From NCBI GenBank assembly GCA_002733665.1, contig NVWM01000030.1, forward strand, positions 1 through 64,000: 64,000 nucleotides of DNA, read 5' to 3'. How positions within the stretch are numbered: position 1 is the first letter of the stretch; each line of letters begins with the position of its first letter. A program made the translations under genes and the position numbers. This DNA is from Lutibacter sp. Its GTDB lineage: Bacteria > Bacteroidota > Bacteroidia > Flavobacteriales > Flavobacteriaceae. Below the pieces are notes generated by a model, which did no database searches, was not told the origin of the DNA, and saw only the letters and a program-made list of their open reading frames with translations. Shown here in pieces: positions 12,719-25,492 of this stretch.

Positions 12719-13783
12719 CTATTTATATCCAAAGTATTCTATATATTTTGACAATTTTTCATTTAAAAAATCAAAATCTGATTTATCCATTAAATCTTTG
12801 TAATAATCTACTTTTGATGATTTGATCTCAACAGAACCATCATAATCATTTGGAATTTCTAAAAAATCATTTAATTTAGGAATTGTATGATTAAAATCGT
12901 TTGAAAAATCTTCTAATCGAACTTCAAGAAATTTAATTTTATTAAAATCTTTGGATTCTTTTACTCTGATAATTCTATCATAAACATTAGAAAGGTAATC
13001 TACTGAATCTGAGTAATTTGTTGGGGCCCAAGGCATGTTTCCCATAGAATAAGCAACACCTAATGGGTTTCTAACCATATGAATAAAATAAGCATCTGGA
13101 AAAATTTTTGCTAAAAACGGAATATGTGCAATATTTGCAGGTGTATCTTCACACCAATTTCCTTTATTTTTAGATTTAGCATATTGCATAAAAAGATTGT
13201 TTGTGAAATCGGCAATCAGTTTTTCTAATTCAGTTTCATTCTCAAAATATTTTCCTATATATTTTGTTTCGGGACTGTTTCCATATGTCAGAGGATTGAA
13301 TCTTTTAATTTTTTTATTAGAAATTTTTTCAAACAAACTAAAAGTTTTATTAATGTATTTTCCAAAAAACAATTTAGTTTTATAGTTCCTAAATTTAGTT
13401 TGAAAATCATAGCCTATGAACTCACCTAAAATGATATTAGATAAAAATTCATCAACTTGTTTTTTATAAAAATCTTCACCAAAAAATTTATAAAAATCTT
13501 GATAGATATAAGGCGAAGTTCTTGGTGAAGTCAAATATTCTTCTAATAACTTTTTTATATTTCTAATAGAAATATCTGACTTGTCAATAGAATAATTATT
13601 TGTTAATGAGGTATATAAATCAATCATACCATAACTATCAATTAAAAATCTTGTTTCGGTTGGTAATTTTGTAATATCTCTATGAGAACTTAAAAACTTT
13701 GACATTATAGTAGTTCCACTTCTCCCTGTTCCCCCAATAAAAATTTGTTTGTTCATTATAGGCTGTTTAATTTGTTTGTTCAT
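12719..13783 (-). CDS. PAPS-dependent sulfotransferase family protein
   Basis: This 354-residue protein carries the 5'-phosphosulfate-binding loop of sulfotransferases, [11 protein letters not shown] at about 17-27. A second conserved region, [12 protein letters not shown] near 235, corresponds to the 3'-phosphate-binding Arg/Ser motif. It would transfer sulfate from PAPS to a sugar of the glycan. PAPS would be supplied by cysC/cysD/cysN and the PAP by-product removed by cysQ, all in the same operon. The start at 13783 overlaps the aminotransferase stop (ATGA). A second ATG at 13756 repeats the same first five codons. The acceptor sugar is unknown. Confidence 0.85.
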
Positions 13784-14880
13784 TTATAGTTATTTAAAAT
13801 AATCGCCACTTTTTCAATTTCTTCACCTGTTATAACCGCACTCAAAGGCAAACTCAAAACTTCATTGTGTATTTGCTCGGTAATAGGAAAATTCAAATGG
13901 TTATATTCAATATAAGCTTTTTGTTTATGCGGAGGGATAGGGTAATGAATTAATGTTTGCACACCATTCTTAAGTAAATATTTTTGTAAATCATCTCTTT
14001 CTTTGGTTTTGATGACAAACAAATGCCAAACATGACCTTCCTCGTTTACAACCTTAGGCAAAATAATTGATTGATTTTTAATGTTTTTCAAATAATAGTT
14101 CGCAACTCTTCTTCTTCCCTTAATATCTTGTTGAATATGTTTTAATTTAACATCTAAAAAAGCAGCTTGTAACTCGTCTAGTCTTGAATTTAAACCTTGG
14201 TATTCATTCTCATATTTTTTATGCGAACCATAATTTCGTAATGCATCAATGGTATTCGCCAATACTTTATCATTAGTAGTGACAGCACCTGCATCGCCTA
14301 ATGCCCCCAAATTTTTTCCTGGATAAAAACTATGTCCTGCTGCATCACCTATTGAACCAGAAGTTTTCCCTTTAGACTGAGCACCATGAGATTGTGCTGC
14401 ATCTTCAATTAATTTTAAATTATATTTTGAACATATATCTAACATCTGTTGATCAATAGAAATCTGACCATATAAATGGACTGTTAATATCGCTTTTGTT
14501 TTAGATGTTATAGCATTTTCAATAAGTCTGCTGTCGAGATTAAATGTTTCATTATTTGGCTCAACAAGAACAGGTATTAAATCATTATCGGATATTGCTA
14601 AAAGGGAGGCTATATATGTATTTGAAGGTACAATTACTTCATCTCCTTTTTGCATTACACCTAACTCAATATATGCTTTAAAAATTAGTCGCAGAGCGTC
14701 CAAACCATTTGCAACTCCTAATGCATATTTTACACCACAAAATGAAGCGTAATTTTGTTCAAAGTCATTTAGTTCCTTCCCCATTAAATACCAACCTGAA
14801 TCAATAACTCTATTAGAAGCTTCCTTTAATTCTTTTTCATATTGAGCATTTATTTTTTGTAAGTCTAAGAATTTAATCAT
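13780..14880 (-). CDS. fdtB: DegT/DnrJ/EryC1/StrS sugar aminotransferase (FdtB/QdtB-like)
   Basis: This 366-residue PLP-dependent aminotransferase contains EDAAQSHGA (Asp160, pyridine-nitrogen contact) and [13 protein letters not shown] with the Schiff-base Lys189. Together with RmlA, RmlB and the neighbouring 3,4-ketoisomerase(s), it should aminate a dTDP-3-keto-6-deoxyhexose at C3, giving dTDP-Fuc3N or dTDP-Qui3N. It overlaps both neighbours by 4 bp. The stereochemistry of the product depends on the ketoisomerase and cannot be read here. Confidence 0.88.
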
Positions 14881-15428
14881 TGTTCTTTAATTTCATCATT
14901 AACTTTTTTATAGGTTTTTCCACAAGAATTACAATTCATTTTTGAGTCCAGTTTATTTCCACATTGACATACATACCCATGAAATTCTGCAGGGTTTCCA
15001 TACCATATCGTATAATCGGGAATATTCTTGGTCACAACGCTTCCTAATCCTATGAATGAATACCTTCCAATAGTGACTCCAGGTTTAATAGATACTCCTG
15101 CTGCAATAGACGCACCTTTCTTAACTAGTGTACGAACTGGTTCAATAAGCACTTTTTTTGATCTTGGAGCCAAATCATTAGTAAAAGAAACATTTGGCGC
15201 AATAAACACATCATCTTCTAATGTAACGCCATCGCAGATTTCAACATAAAATTTTAAAGTGACATTATCTCCAATTACTACATCATTTTCAATAAAACAA
15301 TGACTACAAATATTGCAATTCTCTCCAATAACTGCGCCTTTCAATACAACTACAAATTGCCAAATGGATGTGTTTTCCCCTATATTTATAGATTGTACAT
15401 CCGATAATTCATGAATGAAATTTTTCAT
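14877..15428 (-). CDS. Left-handed beta-helix sugar N-acetyltransferase with Cys4 tail
   Basis: This 183-residue protein is built of hexapeptide repeats (about 12-145; for example [22 protein letters not shown]) and belongs to the WbpD/WlbB/QdtC-like group ([10 protein letters not shown] near 78-86). It should N-acetylate the 3-amino sugar made by the adjacent aminotransferase. The C-terminus adds a compact C154-x-C156...C166-x-x-C169 segment that looks like a zinc ribbon; most characterised relatives end with the hexapeptide domain. It is coupled to neighbours by 4-bp overlaps. Confidence 0.85.
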
Positions 15429-15844
15429 TTCTTTAAATTTAAAAAATCTTTATAATCTCTAACATAATCAACCTCACTATAAGTCTGAGATGCCAGTACC
15501 ATACATATTGATCCTGAAGAAAAATTGTCTAATTCTCTCCATAATCCTGGTACAATATGCAAAGCAATGTTAGGTCTATTCAAAGTAACTCTTTTCTTAT
15601 TTTTTCCATCATCTAATATTACATCGAAACTACCACTTGCTGCTATCACAAATTGTTCTAATTCATAATGTGCATGCCCTCCTCGAGCTTCTCCTCCTGG
15701 AATATCATATAGGTAATAAACTCTTTTTACATCAAACGGAATGTTTTTTCCGTTTTCAATAACTGTAATACTTCCTGCATCATTCTCAATTTTAGACAAA
15801 TCAATTATAGAACAATCAAAAACTGTATTATTACTTAATTTCAT
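15425..15844 (-). CDS. fdtA: Cupin sugar 3,4-ketoisomerase (FdtA/QdtA family), His-x-His copy
   Basis: This 139-residue single-domain cupin of the FdtA/WxcM-like family carries the catalytic ARGGHAH motif with His57 and His59. It would convert dTDP-4-keto-6-deoxyglucose to the 3-keto sugar used by the aminotransferase. The frame is also open back to a TTG at 15868. I prefer the ATG at 15844 because it gives the normal family length and only a 14-bp overlap with the upstream paralogue. Whether the product is the galacto (Fdt) or gluco (Qdt) isomer is not evident. Confidence 0.85.
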
Positions 15845-16238
15845 ATCTAGTTTTTTTGAATTGTTCAAAATCTCTTATATAATCTTTTTTATCATATTCA
15901 ATTGAAGATACAATTAAAGCTACTGAATTTGTTGAAAAATTTTCCAATTTTCGCCATAATAAATTTGGGACATACAAACCTTTATATGATCTATTTAGAT
16001 TGTATTTAACTTCATCCTCTCCATTATTTAAAACAACATCAAAACTTCCTGAAAGGGCAATAATAAATTCATGTGATTTTTTAAACGCATGACTTCCTCT
16101 AAGTTCACCTCCTGGAACATCATAAATCCAATAGACTCTTTTTATATCAAAAGGTATCTGCTTCGTATTTTCAAAAAAACTTAGATTTCCTCTTTTATCA
16201 AGAACCTTTGGTAACTCAATAATTTTTACCTTATCCAT
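15831..16238 (-). CDS. Cupin ketoisomerase paralogue with HAF in place of HAH
   Basis: This 135-residue second FdtA/QdtA-family cupin is clearly paralogous to the following gene: RGNLSFFEN, PFDIKRVYWIYDVPGGE and SGSFDVVL all have counterparts there. Its active-site motif reads RGSHAF (His50, Phe52), so the second catalytic His of characterised ketoisomerases is absent. It could have a different stereospecificity, act as a partner subunit of the His-x-His copy, or be inactive. It shares one base with the rmlA stop. Confidence 0.83.
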   Translation of the reverse strand: MDKVKIIELPKVLDKRGNLSFFENTKQIPFDIKRVYWIYDVPGGELRGSHAFKKSHEFIIALSGSFDVVLNNGEDEVKYNLNRSYKGLYVPNLLWRKLENFSTNSVALIVSSIEYDKKDYIRDFEQFKKTRYEIK

Positions 16239-17101
16239 TATACGCCAACTACTTTATTTATATAAGTACCATAACCACTTTTCCCATATTTTTTAGCAAC
16301 TTTCAAAGTTTGTTCTTTATCTATAAATCCATGTAAATATGCAATTTCTTCTATACATGCAATTTTTGTATCTGTCCTTTTCTCAATAACTCTAACAAAC
16401 TCAGAAGCATCATCCATTGAGTCTACTGTTCCTGTATCTAACCAAGCCATCCCGCGAGTCATAATTCCAACTTCTAACTTCCCTTGTTCTAAATACATCT
16501 GATTTAAAGTGGTAATTTCTTTTTCTCCTCTTTCTGAAGGCTTCACTTTTTTTGCTAATTCCACTACTTCATTGTCATAAAAATACAATCCTGGAACAGC
16601 GTAAGTAGATTTTGGTTTTAATGGTTTTTCTTCAATACTTATAGCTTTATTTGTTGAATCAAATTCAACTACACCATAACGCTGAGGATCATTTACTGGA
16701 TATGCAAATACAGCTGCTCCTTCAATATTTACTTTATTCCTTAATAAAGTTCCTAATCCACTTCCATAAAAAATATTATCTCCCAATACTAAAGCTACTT
16801 TATCTTTCCCTATAAATTTTTCTCCAATAATAAAAGCTTCAGCCAAACCATTAGGCTCTGGTTGTATTGCGTATTCAAAACGACAGCCAACTTGCGAACC
16901 ATCTCCTAAAAGTTTCACAAATGATGCTTGATCGTGAGGCGTTGTTATAATTAATATTTCACGAATTCCAGCCAACATTAAAACTGAAAGTGGATAATAA
17001 ATCATCGGCTTGTCATAAATAGGTAATAATTGTTTACTTACAGCTATTGTTAATGGATATAATCGTGTTCCTGAACCTCCTGCTAAAATAATTCCTTTCA
17101 T
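16238..17101 (-). CDS. rfbA: Glucose-1-phosphate thymidylyltransferase
   Basis: This 287-residue nucleotidyltransferase begins with the signature [16 protein letters not shown] (residues 3-18) and contains EKPLKPKS near 158 and LDTGT near 222, as in RmlA/RfbA (about 290 residues). It makes dTDP-glucose from dTTP and glucose-1-phosphate, the first step toward the dTDP-3-amino-3,6-dideoxy sugar built by the downstream genes. A 91-bp gap separates it from rmlB. Confidence 0.95.
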
Positions 17102-17192
17102 GTGTCTTTATTTATTAACTTTTTAATTATCACATGTAATCGCTATTAATCATTTTCAATGATGATAATGCTTTTAACATGCTCGATTCATA

Positions 17193-18245
17193 TTAATTTT
17201 CTAAATACATTTTATTATAATAGTTTTGATAATCTCCAGAAGTTACATTTTTTAACCAATCTTCATTGTTTAAATACCAATCTATTGTTTTTGACAATCC
17301 TTCTTCAAAAGTTACTGATGGTTTCCAACCTAATTCTTTATTTATTTTATTTGCATCTATTGCGTAACGTAAGTCATGTCCTGGTCTATCTTTAACATAT
17401 GTAATTAGTTTTTCTGAAGAGTTTTTTGGTTTATCTAATTTCTCATCCATTAACTTACATAAAACTTTTACCAAATCAATGTTTTTCCATTCATTGAATC
17501 CTCCAACATTATATGTTTCATGATTTTTTCCTTCATGAAAAACCAAATCAATTGCAACTGCATGATCTTCTACAAATAACCAGTCTCTTGTGTAATTTCC
17601 ATCTCCATAAACAGGTAAAGATTTATCATTGAGTATATTATTGATGAATAGAGGAATTAGCTTCTCTGGAAATTGATGTGAACCATAATTATTAGAACAA
17701 TTAGTTATAACATATGGCATTTTATACGTTTCTCCATAAGATCTAACAAAGTGATCAGAACTTGCTTTTGAGGCTGAGTATGGAGAATTTGGGTCATATG
17801 ATGTTGTTTCAGTAAACAATCCTGTTTCACCCAATGATCCATAGACCTCATCTGTACTTACATGGTAAAATCTTTTTCCTTCCCAATTGTTATTCCATAA
17901 ATTTTTAAAGGCATTTAAAAGAATCATTGTTCCCAAAATATTTGTTTTAGCAAATGCTAAAGGGTCTTTTATAGAGCGATCAACATGAGATTCAGCTGCT
18001 AAATGAATTACTCCATCAAATTGATATTCAGTAAATAAATTATTGATAAATACTTCATCAGTAATATCTCCTTTTAGAAACTTATAATTTTTTGAAAGTT
18101 CTACATCCTTTAAATTTTCTAAGTTTCCTGCATAGGTTAAAACATCTAAATTATAAATCATGTAATTTGGATATTTATTCACAAACAAACGAACTACATG
18201 GCTTCCAATAAACCCTGCACCTCCTGTAATTAAAATCTTCTTCAT
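17193..18245 (-). CDS. rfbB: dTDP-glucose 4,6-dehydratase
   Basis: This is an extended short-chain dehydrogenase of 350 residues from the ATG at 18245 (MKKILITGGAGFIGS, NAD-binding GxxGxxG). STDEVYGS near 125 and the catalytic YSASK near 155 fit RmlB. It converts dTDP-glucose to dTDP-4-keto-6-deoxyglucose. The frame extends seven codons upstream to 18266, but the inner ATG places the Rossmann strand at the usual distance from the N-terminus. The 65-bp gap to tviB contains no -7 box match that I could find. Confidence 0.95.
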   Translation of the reverse strand: MKKILITGGAGFIGSHVVRLFVNKYPNYMIYNLDVLTYAGNLENLKDVELSKNYKFLKGDITDEVFINNLFTEYQFDGVIHLAAESHVDRSIKDPLAFAKTNILGTMILLNAFKNLWNNNWEGKRFYHVSTDEVYGSLGETGLFTETTSYDPNSPYSASKASSDHFVRSYGETYKMPYVITNCSNNYGSHQFPEKLIPLFINNILNDKSLPVYGDGNYTRDWLFVEDHAVAIDLVFHEGKNHETYNVGGFNEWKNIDLVKVLCKLMDEKLDKPKNSSEKLITYVKDRPGHDLRYAIDANKINKELGWKPSVTFEEGLSKTIDWYLNNEDWLKNVTSGDYQNYYNKMYLEN

Positions 18246-18310
18246 ATTATATTCATTTAAAAACATCCTTTTTAAATCTATATCAATTTGTAAATAGAAT
18301 TGTTGTTATT

Positions 18311-19597
18311 CTACAATCTACCTTGAACTTCTCCAGTTAATATTCCTTTCACATCATAGATTACACCATTATCATTAAGATAATTATTCAAATCTATCTT
18401 TAAAAATTCATTATGTGCAACTGCCAAAACTATTGCATCGTATTTTTCGTTTGGCATTTCACTTAGAGTTTCCAATTTATATTCATGGATAACCTCAGTA
18501 GGATTTGCCCAAGGGTCAAAAATTGATACAGCAGTTCCAAAATCTTTTAAATGATGAATTACATCAACCGCTTTTGTATTTCTAACGTCTGGACAATTCT
18601 CTTTAAATGTAATTCCTAAAACTAATATTTTTGCATTCTTTACTCTAATATCTCTATTTATAAGCAATTTAATAACTTCTGTAGCAATGTATTTGCCCAT
18701 ACTATCATTCATTCTACGTCCTGCCAAAATAATTTCAGGATGATATCCTACTTCTTGTGCTTTTTGTGCTAAATAATATGGATCAACTCCGATACAATGT
18801 CCTCCAACTAATCCTGGCTTAAATGGCAAGAAATTCCACTTCGTTCCTGCTGCCTCTAAAACATCTTGCGTGTTTATGTCTAATAAGTTAAATATTTTTG
18901 CCAATTCGTTTACAAATGCAATATTAATGTCTCGTTGTGAATTTTCAATTACTTTTGCTGCTTCTGCAACTTTAATTGTTGGTGCTAAATGAGTTCCAGC
19001 AGTAATAACTGACGCATATAGATCATCAACTTTTTTTCCTATTTCTTTTGTAGAACCTGAAGTTACCTTCAATATTTTTTCAACAGTATGTTCTTTATCT
19101 CCTGGATTTATTCTTTCTGGAGAATATCCTGCAAAAAAATCTTTATTAAATACCATTCCCGATCTTTCTTCTAAAACCGGAATACATACCTCTTCTGTTG
19201 CTCCAGGATATACTGTTGATTCATACACAACAATATCACCTTTTTTGAGACCCTTTGCTACAGTTTCACTCGCCTTTATTAATGGTGTTAAATCTGGTTT
19301 ATTATTTTCATCTACAGGTGTTGGAACAGTAATAATATAATAGTTACAATCTTTAATATCTTCAATATTGGTAGTACAGTATAAACCTTTATTACTGTTT
19401 GAATTGGCATCAACCAAAACTTTCTGTAACGTATCTTTGTCTACCTCAAGTGTTGCGTCAATTCCTTTGTTTAATTCAGATACTCTATTATTATTAATAT
19501 CAAACCCTACAACCGAATATTTTGTTGCAAATAGTCTTGCCAATGGCAAACCAACATATCCAAGCCCAATAATTGCAATTTTTATTTTTTTATCCAT
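18311..19597 (-). CDS. tviB: UDP-N-acetylglucosamine 6-dehydrogenase (TviB/VipA-like)
   Basis: This 428-residue UDP-sugar dehydrogenase begins IAIIGLGYVGLPLA (residues 8-21). It has the thiohemiacetal-forming Cys268 in GLVGGHCIGVDP and a C-terminal UDP-binding domain. It resembles Salmonella TviB closely over its length, more than UDP-glucose dehydrogenases. It should oxidise UDP-GlcNAc (or UDP-GalNAc) to the uronic acid. The adjacent upstream tviC-like epimerase makes UDP-GalNAcA the likely product. Confidence 0.9.
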   Translation of the reverse strand: MDKKIKIAIIGLGYVGLPLARLFATKYSVVGFDINNNRVSELNKGIDATLEVDKDTLQKVLVDANSNSNKGLYCTTNIEDIKDCNYYIITVPTPVDENNKPDLTPLIKASETVAKGLKKGDIVVYESTVYPGATEEVCIPVLEERSGMVFNKDFFAGYSPERINPGDKEHTVEKILKVTSGSTKEIGKKVDDLYASVITAGTHLAPTIKVAEAAKVIENSQRDINIAFVNELAKIFNLLDINTQDVLEAAGTKWNFLPFKPGLVGGHCIGVDPYYLAQKAQEVGYHPEIILAGRRMNDSMGKYIATEVIKLLINRDIRVKNAKILVLGITFKENCPDVRNTKAVDVIHHLKDFGTAVSIFDPWANPTEVIHEYKLETLSEMPNEKYDAIVLAVAHNEFLKIDLNNYLNDNGVIYDVKGILTGEVQGRL

Positions 19598-19598
19598 T

Positions 19599-20576
19599 TT
19601 ATTTTAAATTATTCCAGTACCATTCTATAGCCTCATCCAATCCTTCTTTGATTGAAAATTTTGGGCTGTAACCTAACAGTTCTTTTGCTTTATCAATAGA
19701 TGCTAAAGAATGTGGAATATCTCCCAATCTTGTAGGTCCATTTTTTATCAATACTTCTTTTATTTTTGAATCATGTTTAGACAAACCTTCTCTTAACATT
19801 AAAACTAATTCATTTAAAGTAGTCCGTTCTCCATAGGCAACATTATAAACTTGATTTAATGCTTTTGAATTTTGTGTACTTAAAGCCAATAAATTCATTT
19901 GAATAACATTATCAATATAGGTGAAATCTCTAGAAAATTCACCATCTCCATTTATAATTGGAGATTCATATTTCATAAACTGCATCACAAATTTCGGGAT
20001 AACAGCTGCATAAGCACCATTTGGATCTTGTTTTCTTCCAAAAACATTAAAATATCTTAAACCAATTACATCTAAGTTATACGTTTTGCTAAAGATTTCT
20101 GCATACAACTCATTAACATATTTTGTAATAGCGTATGGAGATAAAGGCTTACCAATAACATCTTCAACTTTAGGCAATCCTTTTGAATCTCCATAAGTTG
20201 ACGAACTTGCGGCATAAATAAATCGTTGAACATTAGCGTCTCTTGCAGCAACCAACATATTTAAAAACCCTGAAGTATTCACGTCGTTTGTAGTTATTGG
20301 ATCTTTTATTGAACGAGGTACTGACCCTAAAGCTGCTTGATGCAAAACGAAATCTACACCTTCACAAGCCTTATTACAATCTCCCAACTCTCTTATATCT
20401 CCTTCTATTAAATTAAAATTTGGATTGTCTAATAAATGCTCAATATTTTCTTTTTTACCAGTTGAAAAATTATCAAGACATGTAACATTATTATTTAACG
20501 CTAATAACTCCTCGCATAAGTTTGAACCTATAAAACCTGCTCCTCCTGTTACTAAAATGTTTTTTCTTTCAATCAT
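19599..20576 (-). CDS. tviC: UDP-GlcNAc(A) C4-epimerase (TviC/WbpP-like)
   Basis: This extended SDR epimerase of 325 residues starts at the ATG at 20576 (ILVTGGAGFIGSNLCEEL). It has SSSTYGDS near 125, catalytic YAITK near 150 and RYFNVFGRKQDP near 177, the pattern of WbpP/TviC 4-epimerases acting on N-acetylated UDP-sugars. It forms a two-gene unit with tviB (1-bp gap). A TTG six codons upstream (20594) would overlap cysN and is less likely. Confidence 0.9.
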   Translation of the reverse strand: MIERKNILVTGGAGFIGSNLCEELLALNNNVTCLDNFSTGKKENIEHLLDNPNFNLIEGDIRELGDCNKACEGVDFVLHQAALGSVPRSIKDPITTNDVNTSGFLNMLVAARDANVQRFIYAASSSTYGDSKGLPKVEDVIGKPLSPYAITKYVNELYAEIFSKTYNLDVIGLRYFNVFGRKQDPNGAYAAVIPKFVMQFMKYESPIINGDGEFSRDFTYIDNVIQMNLLALSTQNSKALNQVYNVAYGERTTLNELVLMLREGLSKHDSKIKEVLIKNGPTRLGDIPHSLASIDKAKELLGYSPKFSIKEGLDEAIEWYWNNLK

Positions 20577-20586
20577 GTTTTTGCAT

Positions 20587-21840
20587 TTATACAATCATTC
20601 CTGCTGCAACAGTTTCATTTGTTGCATCATCAACAAGGATAATACTTCCCGTCACTCTATTTTCTCTATAAGAATCTACCATTAAAGGTTTTGTTGTTCT
20701 TATTTTTACTTTAGATATATCATTCATCCCAAGTTCTTTATCGTCATTAATCCTTCCTAAAGTATTTATATCTATCTTATAAATCACTTCTTTAATCATT
20801 GCTTTTTGATTGTTTGAAGTGTGCTTAATTGTATATTTTGCTCTAGGTCTTGCCGGAGAATTATTTAACCAACATAACATGACTTCTATATCTTGTGATG
20901 CATCTGGTTTATTGTTTGATCTTACAAGCATATCTCCTCTACTAATGTCAATATCGTCTTCTAAAGTTATTGAAACTGACATAGGAGCATGTGCTTCATC
21001 TAATGATTTTTCAAAAACATCAATACTCTTAATTTTTGAAGTAAATCCTGATGGCATTACTGTAATTTCATCTCCTTTTCTAAAAACACCACTTGCTATT
21101 CTTCCAGCATAACCTCGATAATCTCTGTGAGCTTCACTTTGTGGTCTTAAGACTGTTTGTACAGGAAAACGTGCATCTACTTTATTTATATCGCTACTAA
21201 TATGCATTGTTTCAAGCGTATGCAACATAGGCGCTCCTTGATACCAATCCATGTTTTTTGAACGATTCACAACATTATCTCCTAACAGTGCACTCATTGG
21301 TATATAGCGAACATCTGTAATTAACATTTTAGAAGAAATCTCTTCGAATTGTCTCACAATATTGTTAAAAGTTTCTTCAGAAAAATCGACCAAATCCATT
21401 TTATTCACACAAACTATAACGTGAGGGATTTGTAATAATGATGCAATGAATGCATGACGTTTGGTTTGCTCAATCACTCCATATCTAGCATCAATTAAAA
21501 TTGTTGCCACATTGGCTGTTGAGGCTCCAGTAACCATATTACGTGTGTATTGTATATGTCCTGGAGTATCTGCTATAATAAATTTTCGCTTTGGAGTAGT
21601 AAAATATCTATAAGCAACATCTATTGTAATTCCTTGCTCTCTTTCATCACGCAAACCATCAGTAAACAATGCTAAATCTACACCATCATGCCCTTTTCGT
21701 TTACTTGTATTCTCTATCGCTTTTAACTGATCTTCGAAAATAGATTTTGAATCGTATAACAAACGACCTATTAATGTACTTTTCCCATCATCTACACTCC
21801 CTGCGGTAGTAAATCTTAATAATTGATTATTATCTAACAT
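20587..21840 (-). CDS. cysN: Sulfate adenylyltransferase GTPase subunit
   Basis: This 417-residue translation-factor-like GTPase has GSVDDGKST at 14-22 (P-loop), DTPGH at 91-95 and NKMD at 146-149, followed by two EF-Tu-like beta-barrel domains. With CysD it makes APS from sulfate and ATP, driven by GTP hydrolysis. There is no fused APS kinase; cysC is separate two genes upstream. No sulfite or PAPS reductase genes are nearby, so the cluster appears devoted to sulfation rather than sulfur assimilation. Confidence 0.95.
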   Translation of the reverse strand: MLDNNQLLRFTTAGSVDDGKSTLIGRLLYDSKSIFEDQLKAIENTSKRKGHDGVDLALFTDGLRDEREQGITIDVAYRYFTTPKRKFIIADTPGHIQYTRNMVTGASTANVATILIDARYGVIEQTKRHAFIASLLQIPHVIVCVNKMDLVDFSEETFNNIVRQFEEISSKMLITDVRYIPMSALLGDNVVNRSKNMDWYQGAPMLHTLETMHISSDINKVDARFPVQTVLRPQSEAHRDYRGYAGRIASGVFRKGDEITVMPSGFTSKIKSIDVFEKSLDEAHAPMSVSITLEDDIDISRGDMLVRSNNKPDASQDIEVMLCWLNNSPARPRAKYTIKHTSNNQKAMIKEVIYKIDINTLGRINDDKELGMNDISKVKIRTTKPLMVDSYRENRVTGSIILVDDATNETVAAGMIV

Positions 21841-21851
21841 TGCTTATTCTT

Positions 21852-22757
21852 TTAAAAATATCCTTGTCTTTTCCTGTCTTCCATTGCAGATTCAGAACGT
21901 TTATCATCACTTCTATTTCCTCTTTCTGTTTGGCGCATTCCTGCAACTTCTACAGCTATTTTTTCTAATGTATCTGCTTCTGACTCATCTCCTCCAGTAA
22001 TTGTAATATCCCCTAAAGTTCTGAAGCGAATTTTTTTAGTAACTACTTCCTCATGATCTTCAATAATCAAAAACTCTGAGTTTGGAATCCACGTACCATC
22101 TCTTCTAATAACTTCACGCTCGTGAGCAAAGTATAATGATGGTATCGCTATGTTTTCTCTTTTTATATAATTCCACACATCCATTTCTGTCCAATTGCTT
22201 ATCGGAAATGCTCTAAAATGTTCGCCTTGAAAATGTTTCCCATTAAAAATATTCCACAATTCTGGTCTTTGATTTTTTGGATCCCATTGTCCAAAATCAT
22301 CACGATGTGAAAAAAATCGCTCCTTTGCTCTAGCTTTTTCTTCATCTCTTCTTCCTCCTCCAATAGCACAATCTACTTTGTTTGATTCTATAGCATCTAA
22401 AAGTGTGGTAATTTGAAGTGTATTTCTTGTAGCATTTTTTCCTTTTTCTTCTGCAACTCTACCGTCATCAATAGCTTCTTGAACCGAACCAACAATTAAA
22501 TCTACTCCTAACTCTTTAATTATATCATCCCTAAATTCAATAGTTTCAGGGAAATTATGCCCTGTATCTACGTGCATTAAAGGAAATGGTATTTTTGCTG
22601 GATAAAATGCTTTTTTAGCCAAATGCGTTACTAATATTGAATCTTTCCCTCCTGAAAATAAAATTACTGGATTTTGGAATTGTGCCCAAACTTCACGTAA
22701 AATAAAAATGGCTTCACTTTCTAATTCGTCTAAATAATTTAAATAATATTTACTCAT
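21852..22757 (-). CDS. cysD: Sulfate adenylyltransferase catalytic subunit
   Basis: This 301-residue PP-loop ATP pyrophosphatase has the SGGKDS loop at 35-40 and MHVDTGHNFPE near 62, and a C-terminal region ending in MEDRKRQGYF, as in CysD (about 300 residues). It catalyses APS formation with CysN. It lies 11 bp upstream of cysN and overlaps the 3' end of cysC by 8 bp. Confidence 0.96.
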   Translation of the reverse strand: MSKYYLNYLDELESEAIFILREVWAQFQNPVILFSGGKDSILVTHLAKKAFYPAKIPFPLMHVDTGHNFPETIEFRDDIIKELGVDLIVGSVQEAIDDGRVAEEKGKNATRNTLQITTLLDAIESNKVDCAIGGGRRDEEKARAKERFFSHRDDFGQWDPKNQRPELWNIFNGKHFQGEHFRAFPISNWTEMDVWNYIKRENIAIPSLYFAHEREVIRRDGTWIPNSEFLIIEDHEEVVTKKIRFRTLGDITITGGDESEADTLEKIAVEVAGMRQTERGNRSDDKRSESAMEDRKRQGYF

Positions 22758-23352
22758 TGTTGAGTTGCAATTTAGGTGTTATATAATCTATAATTTGACT
22801 TACTGCCTGTTCTACTGTTTCTTGTTCTGTGTTTATTTTTATATCTGGATTCTCTGGGGCCTCATAAGGTGCTGATATTCCTGTCATATTCTTTATTTCT
22901 CCTTTTCTCGCTTTTTCATACAATCCTTTTACATCTCTACGCTCACATTCTTCTATACTTGTATTAATAAAGACCTCGACAAAGTTACCATCTTTGACTA
23001 TATTTTTAATATTTTCTCTATCTTTTTTATAAGGTGAAACAAATGCTGCAAGAACAACAATTCCTGAATCAATCATCAGATTTGCAATTTCTGCAATTCG
23101 TCGAATATTTTCAGTCCTATCTTCTGGTGTAAAAGTTAAATCACTATTTATACCATTTCTTATATTGTCTCCGTCTAAAATATAAGTTTTTATTCCTTTT
23201 TTATGTAATTTTTGCTCAACAACATTGGCTATAGTTGATTTTCCTGAGCCTGATAAACCTGTGAACCACAATAAAAATGAATTATGTTCATTAAGGTTAT
23301 TTCTATCTGTTTTTGAAATTTGATAATCATGTGGGATTATATTTTCTTTCAT
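22750..23352 (-). CDS. cysC: Adenylylsulfate (APS) kinase
   Basis: This 200-residue kinase has the P-loop GLSGSGKST at 32-40, LDGDNIRNGIN near 60-70 and the lid/substrate region YEKARKGEIKNMTGISAPYE near 145-164. It phosphorylates APS at the 3' position to give PAPS, the donor for the sulfotransferase encoded downstream. It overlaps cysD by 8 bp and the DUF2061 gene by 4 bp. Confidence 0.96.
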   Translation of the reverse strand: MKENIIPHDYQISKTDRNNLNEHNSFLLWFTGLSGSGKSTIANVVEQKLHKKGIKTYILDGDNIRNGINSDLTFTPEDRTENIRRIAEIANLMIDSGIVVLAAFVSPYKKDRENIKNIVKDGNFVEVFINTSIEECERRDVKGLYEKARKGEIKNMTGISAPYEAPENPDIKINTEQETVEQAVSQIIDYITPKLQLNNE

Positions 23353-23813
23353 CCTCCTATTTTTTTTAAGAAAAAGTTTCTGATTTTACCTAACGGTAGT
23401 TTTAACCATAATTTTTCATGTAAGTAATATAGTACAAATTTTGTAAACAACTCAACTAAAGCAATATATAAAGCAATTTCACCAAAACCTTCATTTAAAA
23501 TCAAACCTGAAATAACAAATGTAGTAGTAGTCGCAACTACTCTCCAAGAAATTGTTTTATATAGAATTTCCTTACTTGTTGTTGCCTGTTTCTTCAGGAT
23601 TCTTAACCAAATTCTTTCATGGAAGTAATAAATTGCTAGTTTAAATAAAAATTCTGAAGCACCTATTTTTAACGCATCCTCCAAGCTACATTGACCCATT
23701 AAACTTGTCACTAAAAGCACTACCAAAATAGTATCAGTTAAAGCAACAAATCGCCAAGAAAATCCTTTTAACACGCTACGTAAATGAGATGATTTTTTAT
23801 AGGTTGTCTTCAT
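23349..23813 (-). CDS. DUF2061 membrane protein with two repeated halves
   Basis: This 154-residue membrane protein is made of two similar halves. Each has a (K/S)WR(F/V)VA element, a hydrophobic segment, a second hydrophobic segment and a conserved YYFHE or YYLHE just before RIWLRI or KLWLKL. This is the DUF2061 arrangement, with four likely membrane segments. Its biochemical role is unknown to me. It sits exactly between cysC and cysQ with a 4-bp and a 1-bp overlap, so a role linked to sulfate, PAPS or PAP handling is a reasonable guess from context only. Confidence 0.8.
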   Translation of the reverse strand: MKTTYKKSSHLRSVLKGFSWRFVALTDTILVVLLVTSLMGQCSLEDALKIGASEFLFKLAIYYFHERIWLRILKKQATTSKEILYKTISWRVVATTTTFVISGLILNEGFGEIALYIALVELFTKFVLYYLHEKLWLKLPLGKIRNFFLKKIGG

Positions 23814-24613
23814 TAATTCTTAGAAACTAAAAACCAGGGATTCAAAAGATTTTCTTTGTTATATAGCAACGGCTTATTTGTAACATTAGAAATAACTTCA
23901 ATTCCTGCCGCATTACATATTGCTTGTCCAGCGGCTGTATCCCATTCCATTGTTGGTGCAAATCGTGGATATACATCTGCATTTCCTTCTGCAACTAAAC
24001 AAAACTTTAACGAACTTCCTTTTGAAACAATTTCAACTTCACTGCCATTTTTCTTAAGTTTTTCAACATAATCTAATGTTTCTTGACTCATATGTGAACG
24101 ACTACCAACAACTTCTACAAGGTTAGAACTACCATCTTTTGGCTCAAGAATTTTAGCCTTTTTAATCACCTCATCAATTGGAGTGTTATGAGATTTTAAT
24201 TCTGACTTATATGCTAATTTGTTTTTTACATCTGCAAAATAAATTGTTTTACTTACTGGCACATAAATCACTCCTAAAACTGGTTTTCCATTTGTAATTA
24301 AAGCAATATTCACTGTAAACTCCCCATTGCGTTTGATGAATTCTTTTGTCCCGTCAACAGGATCAACAATCCAACATGTGTCCCATTCTTTTCTCGTAGA
24401 ATAATCTATCTGTTTATTCTCTTCGCTTATAATTGGAATTTCAGTTGGTATTAAAAAAGTATTAATAATGTCGTTTGCATTTTTATCGGCTTGTGTTAAG
24501 GGTGAATTATCTCCCTTAATTTCAATATTAAAATCTTCATTATCATATACTTGCATTACAACCTCTCCTGCTCTTAGAGATGCTTTTATTGCAACACTTA
24601 AATCCTTATTCAT
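23813..24613 (-). CDS. cysQ: 3'(2'),5'-bisphosphate nucleotidase
   Basis: This 266-residue member of the inositol-monophosphatase superfamily has SEENKQ near 60 and DPVDGTKEFIKRNGEFTVN near 84-102 (metal ligands and the CysQ-specific GTKEF). A second metal-ligand region, MEWDTAAGQAI, lies near 220. It hydrolyses PAP to AMP, removing the inhibitory by-product of sulfotransferases. As the first gene of the leftward operon, it would be expressed with all the sulfation genes. Confidence 0.93.
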   Translation of the reverse strand: MNKDLSVAIKASLRAGEVVMQVYDNEDFNIEIKGDNSPLTQADKNANDIINTFLIPTEIPIISEENKQIDYSTRKEWDTCWIVDPVDGTKEFIKRNGEFTVNIALITNGKPVLGVIYVPVSKTIYFADVKNKLAYKSELKSHNTPIDEVIKKAKILEPKDGSSNLVEVVGSRSHMSQETLDYVEKLKKNGSEVEIVSKGSSLKFCLVAEGNADVYPRFAPTMEWDTAAGQAICNAAGIEVISNVTNKPLLYNKENLLNPWFLVSKN

Positions 24614-24784: not shown

Positions 24785-25492
24785 ATGGCTTACAAAAGAA
24801 TTTTATTAAAATTAAGTGGTGAAGCGTTAATGGGCGAACGCAATTATGGGATTGACCCAAAACGTTTGGCTGAATATGCTGAAGATATAAAAGAAATTGT
24901 TGCTCAAGGAGTAGAAGTTGCTATAGTTATTGGTGGCGGAAATATCTTCAGAGGTGTTGCTGGAGCTAGCAATGGTATGGATAGAGTTCAAGCAGACTAT
25001 ATGGGAATGTTGGCTACTGTTATTAATGGTCTTGCGTTACAAAGCGCTCTTGAAGATACCGATGTACAAACAAGACTCCAAACTGCCATAAAAATCGAAG
25101 CTATTGCTGAGCCATATATCAAAAGGAAAGCTGTACGACATCTAGAAAAGGGTCGTGTCGTTATTTTTGGTTCTGGTACTGGAAATCCATTTTTTACAAC
25201 TGATTCTGCAGCTGCATTAAGAGCTATTGAAATAAGTGCTGATGTTATTTTAAAAGGAACAAGAGTAGATGGAGTTTATGATTCTGATCCTGAAAAAAAT
25301 AAAGATGCAATAAAATATGATAAAATTTCTTTTGCTGATGTTCTTAAAAAAGGATTGAAAATCATGGATACAACTGCCTTTACATTAAGCCAAGAAAACA
25401 ATTTACCAATAATAGTATTTGACATGAATACTCGTGGAAACTTACTCAAAGTAGTTTTAGGAGAAAATATTGGAACAATTGTTGCTAATTAA
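24785..25492 (+). CDS. pyrH: UMP kinase
   Basis: This 235-residue amino-acid-kinase-fold protein has KLSGEALMG near 9, IGGGNIFRG near 50-58, [16 protein letters not shown] near 130-145 and DGVYDSDP near 161, all typical of bacterial UMP kinase. It phosphorylates UMP to UDP, feeding nucleotide and UDP-sugar pools. It is followed 27 bp later by frr, the usual flavobacterial pair. Confidence 0.97.

Follow-up and report, generated by a model that had tools for sequence, protein, structure and literature searches.

Clusters that join sulfate activation to a sulfotransferase or to a polysaccharide are known from several bacteria. In Bacteroides thetaiotaomicron, the cluster BT_0411-BT_0416 places the genes for 3'-phosphoadenosine 5'-phosphosulfate (PAPS) next to a sulfotransferase gene, and BT_0412, which adjoins those for PAPS, has been proposed to encode a sulfate importer (PMC9417993). 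The capsule cluster of Cobetia marina KMM 1449, whose established capsule structure is sulfated, contains cysN/cysC, cysD and cysQ together with a gene for a sulfate permease (PMC11766843). Rhizobia make PAPS with NodPQ and sulfate their Nod factors with NodH (PMC6192434). In Corynebacterium glutamicum the sulfate-activation operon cysIXHDNYZ encloses a membrane protein gene, and a cysZ mutant fails to grow on either sulfate or sulfite (PMC1266029); CysZ, a protein of 309 amino acids, has been assigned to the TSUP family (PMC5840216). Here we describe a related cassette in a stretch of 64,000 nucleotides from Lutibacter sp. (phylum Bacteroidota; contig NVWM01000030.1; the whole stretch is called the window), where a small membrane protein made of two DUF2061 domains (PF09834) is encoded among the PAPS genes.

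The cassette consists of five adjacent genes on the minus strand, cysQ, DUF2061, cysC, cysD and cysN, which head a co-directional polysaccharide run that includes a sulfotransferase gene:

23813-24613, minus strand: cysQ, 3'(2'),5'-bisphosphate nucleotidase, first gene of the run (TIGR01331, 259.7 bits, cut-off 228.8; PF00459)
23349-23813, minus strand: tandem DUF2061 membrane protein, 154 amino acids (PF09834 matched twice, 105.1 bits, cut-off 23.1)
22750-23352, minus strand: cysC, adenosine 5'-phosphosulfate (APS) kinase (TIGR00455, 260 bits; PF01583)
21852-22757, minus strand: cysD, ATP sulfurylase small subunit (TIGR02039, 411.5 bits, cut-off 396.6)
20587-21840, minus strand: cysN, ATP sulfurylase GTPase subunit, without a fused CysC (TIGR02034, 555 bits)
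12719-13783, minus strand: PAPS-dependent-type sulfotransferase (PF13469, 93.1 bits; PF00685, 28.4 bits)

The overlaps are 1 base between cysQ and DUF2061, 4 between DUF2061 and cysC and 8 between cysC and cysD, while 11 bases separate cysD from cysN. Eight genes lie between cysN and the sulfotransferase gene, and a flippase gene comes after it. An earlier reading of this DNA, made from the letters alone (the sequence-only reading), had described cysQ, DUF2061, cysC, cysD and cysN as overlapping or nearly abutting, with DUF2061 wedged among them, and had seen the cassette lead into sugar-nucleotide genes and then a sulfotransferase. The coordinates confirm the first observation and the family matches confirm the second. 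The parts by which we recognize a PAPS-sulfation cassette, namely ATP sulfurylase, APS kinase, a phosphatase for 3'-phosphoadenosine 5'-phosphate (PAP), a PAPS-type sulfotransferase and glycan genes, all lie in this one run. Among the open reading frames of the window starting between 12 and 32 kb, phmmer found no SLC13-, TSUP-, ABC- or SulP-like protein.

We read the region as a PAPS-supply cassette within a surface-polysaccharide operon, whose gene content suggests that the glycan would be sulfated. In our judgement it is about an even call that the cassette supplies PAPS for glycan sulfation and that the tandem DUF2061 protein lets sulfate through the membrane and delivers it to ATP sulfurylase, which is the most likely role for this protein. 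PAPS cassettes in capsule clusters are already known; the new element is the DUF2061 component, the role of which is unproven. If it is a sulfate carrier, DUF2061 would be a sixth bacterial family for sulfate entry beside the five treated in PMC5840216, and by far the smallest of them; this would account for the way in which sulfate is fed to both cysteine synthesis and glycan sulfation in this phylum.

The window shares with the B. thetaiotaomicron cluster the placement of PAPS genes with a sulfotransferase gene, but it has DUF2061 for BT_0412, and its product is presumably a glycan rather than a sterol such as the cholesterol on which the sulfotransferase of that cluster acts. Like C. marina, it has cysC, cysD, cysN and cysQ within a polysaccharide cluster; C. 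marina differs in its bifunctional CysN/CysC, its named sulfate permease and its other sugars, and the description of its cluster mentions no DUF2061. As in C. glutamicum, a membrane protein gene is embedded among sulfate-activation genes, although the DUF2061 protein of the window, unlike CysZ, has no Pfam match to TSUP. The rhizobial nodH-nodPQ arrangement of sulfotransferase with cysD/cysN genes has a counterpart on Mesorhizobium nod plasmids (two opened of five found; L199, L202), where the order sulfotransferase-DUF2061-cysD-cysN follows nodB, nodC, nodI and an ABC permease gene. In contrast to the window, the Mesorhizobium DUF2061 is single-domain, and its acceptor, judging from the nod genes, would be a Nod factor. 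The proposal that the window encodes a set of enzymes that make PAPS and remove PAP so that a surface glycan can be sulfated is supported by the likeness of its layout to the B. thetaiotaomicron and C. marina clusters and by the co-occurrence of PF13469 sulfotransferases with APS kinase among 34 hand-picked genomes (8/12 genomes with APS kinase versus 0/22 without).

To judge from its neighborhoods, DUF2061 is a genuine partner of sulfate activation. Among 296 sampled genomes of the phylum, each at least 90% complete, 31 carry DUF2061, and 22 of these have it next to cysH, cysD, cysN or cysC or as a fusion with one of them; the three tandem cases, window included, all accompany cysC. We also examined the best 80 of 281 relatives of the window protein among named genomes, mostly Flavobacteriaceae, a set biased by having been picked for likeness to a tandem protein. 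A script found cysC, cysD, cysN or cysQ in the same-strand run, no more than five genes away, for 64 of the 80, and 65 with one locus (L092) added by hand that the script had overlooked owing to overlapping open reading frames. CysH or sulfite reductase was found in the run of none of the 80. The cysQ-DUF2061-cysC-cysD-cysN grouping itself recurs in dozens of named relatives and is thus beyond chance. The sequence-only reading had named a lack of association between DUF2061 and sulfation genes in other genomes as one result that would refute it; such an association does exist, the tandem form being accompanied by cys genes in 65 of 80 relatives.

These loci were compared with 40 hand-picked ones in which DUF2061 is absent from the spot, 20 of them around cysC and 20 around cysH; some belong to genomes that carry DUF2061 at another site, and cysD is lacking in a few of the cysC group. 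In that group, SLC13/CitMHS proteins (Pfam confirmed two, phmmer the others) occurred in 7/20 loci (L181, L182, L185, L189, L190, L191, L195) and an ABC sulfate transporter in 2/20 (L186, L187). In one of these loci (L185) a Na_sulph_symp gene (PF00939) lies between cysQ and cysC, followed by cysD and a cysN whose product has 611 amino acids; this is the order of the window, with a transporter gene standing where DUF2061 would be. Among the cysH loci, TSUP proteins occurred in 14/20 and an ABC sulfate transporter in 2/20 (L221, L222). Overall, a TSUP, SLC13/DASS or ABC transporter was nearby in 25/40 loci without DUF2061 compared to 0/87 loci with DUF2061 and cys genes, the latter comprising the 65 named and 22 sampled loci, window included (Fisher p 2e-16 over all loci and 3e-7 within the phylum sample, kinship uncorrected). 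Eleven of the 87 are on short stretches; restricted to loci of at least 14 kb, the counts were 25/38 and 0/76 (p 5e-16). Of the 111 DUF2061 loci scanned in all, a single one had TSUP, and it has no cys gene in its run (L130).

In ten operons of one genus (g2), a TSUP gene stands immediately before cysH and downstream of an Rrf2-family gene, where others carry DUF2061, and a second, divergent TSUP gene occupies the same spot in 8 of the 10. Across genomes, this type of TSUP was present in 14/18 without and 1/21 with sulfate-linked DUF2061 (p 5e-6). An ABC sulfate permease over the cut-off was found in 0/23 DUF2061 genomes searched. We also considered whether DUF2061 might be the sole possible sulfate transporter of a genome; the data do not bear this out, as SLC13 was found in 20 of these 23 genomes.

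The families that fill the slot bear on a further possibility, namely that DUF2061 exports or senses another pathway product, such as sulfite or pyrophosphate, or regulates the complex. The TSUP proteins in the slot of assimilation operons match PF01925, a family named for sulfite exporters, which is consistent with this idea. The slot of sulfation cassettes, or its surroundings, holds SLC13/DASS proteins instead, and such cassettes are not known to produce sulfite. We regard this possibility as distinctly unlikely.

The sequence-only reading had left three candidate ligands for DUF2061: sulfate, PAPS or PAP. Two features favor the nucleotides, in that many loci have the tandem form between cysQ and cysC, while it is beside cysH in 0/80 named relatives, and in that DUF2061 is found fused to APS kinase. 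However, an unfused, single-domain DUF2061 adjoins cysH in 16 sampled genomes. A search for APS kinase gave no match in eleven of these, only weak matches in three (G182, G130, G273; E 1e-5 to 4e-4) and a real one in two (G134, G088). Scoring was limited to 12 candidates per genome, and Pfam's low cut-off is passed by nearly all of the weak matches, so that the three weak cases are less secure than the eleven. No PF13469 sulfotransferase was found in any of these 14 genomes. DUF2061 therefore works in genomes where neither PAPS nor PAP should exist, and fusions to CysN likewise tie it to the formation of APS. CysH motifs, inspected in 15 of the 16, were of two types: CC and CxxC motifs, which we take to mark Fe-S APS reductases, in 7, all from genomes in which APS kinase had no match, and a short type lacking these motifs in 8. 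From these gene sets, DUF2061 is probably not a partner of PAPS or PAP, and handling of either as its general role was rejected on account of the genomes without APS kinase. That DUF2061 handles PAPS or PAP, or carries them across the membrane, is in our view very unlikely, although the tandem form could still have shifted its role relative to the single domain. Sulfate is the candidate left standing.

DUF2061 is fused to sulfate-activation enzymes in two ways. Two contigs of metagenome-assembled genomes (L103 and L109, the second named Crocinitomicaceae) carry a fusion of two DUF2061 domains with an APS kinase whose motifs look intact, followed by cysD, cysN and cysQ. In a sampled genome (G140, locus L056), DUF2061 is fused to a divergent APS kinase domain; this gene adjoins a second APS kinase gene and a PF01747 ATP-sulfurylase gene, and a PF13469 gene is on the same contig. 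The P-loop and DGDN-like motif of that fused kinase (L056:13264-13986) differ from those of the neighboring APS kinase, and it may be inactive or act on another substrate. The second kind is a CysN with a C-terminal DUF2061, found on three Microvirga plasmids (L223, L224, L225).

The AlphaFold2 model of the tandem protein, built with 67 tandem sequences, has a mean predicted local distance difference test score of 90.1 and a predicted template modeling score of 0.81, and it places helices at residues 10-38, 44-73, 80-105 and 112-138. The two repeated halves claimed from the sequence alone are therefore evident both as two PF09834 matches and as four long predicted helices. Invariant residues in the 67 sequences include R12, K16, W20, R21, E54, K58 and H65 in the first repeat and K86, R91, E121, K125 and H132 in the second, and the E and K of each repeat fall within its predicted second helix. 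Among proteins outside the list of unlinked loci, the first motif retains E in 83/86, K in 86/86 and H in 85/86, where one row is a spurious motif from L223 and two proteins (L035, L036) carry D in place of E. The residues are partly missing in L059, L062, L063, L226, L229 and L230. Invariant E and K within a predicted helix are unexpected for a mere anchor.

Comparisons with known structures and families gave no clear match. Foldseek returned no fold match in the PDB at E 0.001 or below (best E 1.9), the best VIA match (Z 6.4, rmsd 4.7 over 111 residues) is within the helical background, and a PDB sequence search gave a single match at E 0.77. None of the known sulfate permease families (SulP, DASS/SLC13, TSUP, ABC SulT, CysP/PiT) appeared in a Pfam scan of the window's DUF2061 protein to E 10, a scan in which the HMMER filters discard most weak matches. 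A possible kinship with the two-helix efflux family PACE/BTP had no match in the same scan. A tree built from the single domains together with the half-domains has an edge, with support 0.93, that holds 99% of the N-terminal halves, all singles and 37% of the C-terminal halves; the tree is too weak for dating the duplication. We found no printed function for DUF2061 in the open-licence literature; the DUF2061 passages of PMC12632274, PMC12442407, PMC3751524 and PMC13361928 do not concern sulfate, and PF09834 also appears in PMC3879021.

Several observations weigh against sulfate transport. No solved relative of DUF2061 and no clear fold match were found. It is apart from cys genes in 9 of the 31 sampled genomes (G162, G064, G158, G078, G099, G252, G193, G010, G241), and for 15 of the 80 named relatives the run is devoid of cys genes; tandem loci such as L128-L132 keep the conserved residues and yet lack cys genes in the run. 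As to the exchange of genes in the slot, 15/40 loci without DUF2061 show none of the three transporter kinds, the loci are phylogenetically clustered, and in genus g2, the sole genus with both states, TSUP was present in 11/14 genomes without and 0/2 with DUF2061 (p 0.08). In one locus (L111) a SulP gene (PF00916), which is outside the three counted families, lies within 4 kb of DUF2061 and cysQ. Genome-wide, SLC13 is widespread among DUF2061 genomes, as noted above, SulP is present in 48/51 genomes searched, and the genome of the window has several SulP copies that are alternative transporter candidates. Some of the SLC13 and SulP proteins elsewhere in genomes may carry other anions. Finally, two of the three Microvirga fusions (L224, L225) have an ABC sulfate transporter (Sbp-like and CysT-like by phmmer) about 4 kb downstream, so DUF2061 does not replace a transporter there; none was seen near the third (L223).

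In the main rival reading, DUF2061 does not conduct anything but serves as a membrane anchor or scaffold, holding ATP sulfurylase and APS kinase at the membrane close to the glycan assembly line or to a separate sulfate transporter. Fusions to soluble enzymes, here CysN and APS kinase, fit an anchor equally well; each domain is predicted to have just two helices, and the ABC transporter near two Microvirga fusions and the other transporter families elsewhere in most genomes are as an anchor would have it. The invariant charged residues within the predicted second helix argue against an anchor, as does the frequency with which transporter families fill the slot where DUF2061 is absent. We consider an anchor rather unlikely, though a serious contender.

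It could also be speculated that DUF2061 is a coincidental neighbor with no role in sulfate metabolism. Cys genes accompany DUF2061 in 5 of the 11 plasmid records opened and are lacking in 6, and the domain keeps unrelated company on four haloarchaeal plasmids, in Phaeobacter (beside a desaturase gene), on a Bradyrhizobium plasmid and in a phage, which also counts against a general role in transport. However, the link to sulfate activation holds across two phyla and two pathways and shows in fusions of two kinds, and several of the proteins in unrelated contexts lack the conserved E, K and H. Coincidence is extremely unlikely. The phage case (MW202753.1, L228:5001-5183) is a stretch of 61 residues with 61% identity to a Mesorhizobium DUF2061, near a peptidase M15 gene.

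Under the preferred reading of DUF2061 as a sulfate carrier, sulfate would enter through an oligomer of DUF2061 hairpins, acting as a small permease or permease subunit. CysDN, which the fusions suggest may dock at the cytoplasmic face, would capture the sulfate and form APS. From what is known of the respective families, CysC would then convert APS to PAPS, the sulfotransferase would move sulfate from PAPS to a sugar of the glycan, and CysQ would clear PAP. A bolder version, which we regard as unlikely and put forward tentatively, holds that DUF2061 of the E/K type is a minimal two-helix sulfate channel, docked on or fused to ATP sulfurylase or APS kinase. Uptake would then resemble group translocation, with sulfate activated on entry, and would be common to the assimilation and sulfation branches.

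The remaining genes between cysN and the sulfotransferase gene are as follows:

19599-20594, minus strand: TviC-like UDP-GlcNAcA C4-epimerase (NF011728, 405.2 bits, below the equivalog cut-off of 760)
18311-19597, minus strand: TviB-like nucleotide-sugar dehydrogenase (TIGR03026, 405.7 bits, above cut-off; NF011729, 545.5 bits, cut-off 592)
17193-18266, minus strand: rfbB, dTDP-glucose 4,6-dehydratase (TIGR01181, 467.2 bits, above cut-off)
16238-17101, minus strand: rfbA, glucose-1-phosphate thymidylyltransferase (TIGR01207, 467.8 bits, above cut-off)
15831-16238, minus strand: FdtA-like sugar isomerase, paralogue (PF05523, 170.8 bits; no NCBIfam match)
15425-15868, minus strand: FdtA-like sugar isomerase (PF05523, 180.8 bits)
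14877-15428, minus strand: hexapeptide sugar acetyltransferase (PF00132)
13780-14880, minus strand: DegT-family sugar aminotransferase (PF01041, 332.4 bits)

The last of these overlaps the sulfotransferase gene by 4 bases. This gene content suggests a glycan with an acetamido-dideoxyhexose made via dTDP-sugars and an N-acetyl-hexosaminuronic acid; the sugar names follow the known pathways for such genes, and TviB and TviC score under their equivalog cut-offs. With the exception of an asparagine-synthase-type gene, the open reading frames beyond the flippase gene to the window edge are assigned by eye only, as encoding glycosyltransferases and the like. Beyond cysQ, a divergent gene of the amino-acid-kinase type begins at 24785. 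Two further features were seen in comparable operons. A protein of about 560 amino acids (L066:3133-4821; a cluster of 21 proteins from 20 named loci) recurs upstream in cassette-bearing polysaccharide operons; its 562-residue member was suspected of being a transporter, but the one scanned is DUF6909 (PF21850). In a locus without DUF2061 (L180:6107-9372), a gene for an ASST-type arylsulfotransferase (PF05935) lies upstream of cysQ-cysC-cysD-cysN.

In its assembly (2.7 Mb, 37 contigs, 92.5% complete) the window is contig C13. In line with the sequence-only reading, no gene for PAPS reductase or sulfite reductase was found in the window, and the only CysH found in the genome is on contig C36, flanked by genes of Cys/Met metabolism and a homocysteine methyltransferase gene. 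There was no PF01077 match for sulfite reductase anywhere in this 92.5%-complete genome, and neither Sat nor an SLC13 (PF00939) match was found in it; the genome has one DUF2061 protein. The description of the module as self-contained needs care: the cassette CysD is the genome's only one, by a whole-genome search with PF01507, and additional PF13469 matches are on other contigs. If assimilation has truly been lost, which the incomplete assembly leaves conditional, the cassette ATP sulfurylase would serve sulfation alone. We also considered that CysH, which lacks the Fe-S motif, might be of the PAPS type, so that CysC would also feed assimilation; this was dropped because the same short type of CysH occurs in genomes without APS kinase.

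Among the SulP genes of this genome, two are adjacent at C30:79810-82716 and are possible transporters of sulfate or another anion. On contig C36, downstream of the methyltransferase genes, the G+C content rises from about 34% to 66% within a long frame (L005:13100-14364); the contig end, which by eye codes for response-regulator-like open reading frames, looks chimeric.

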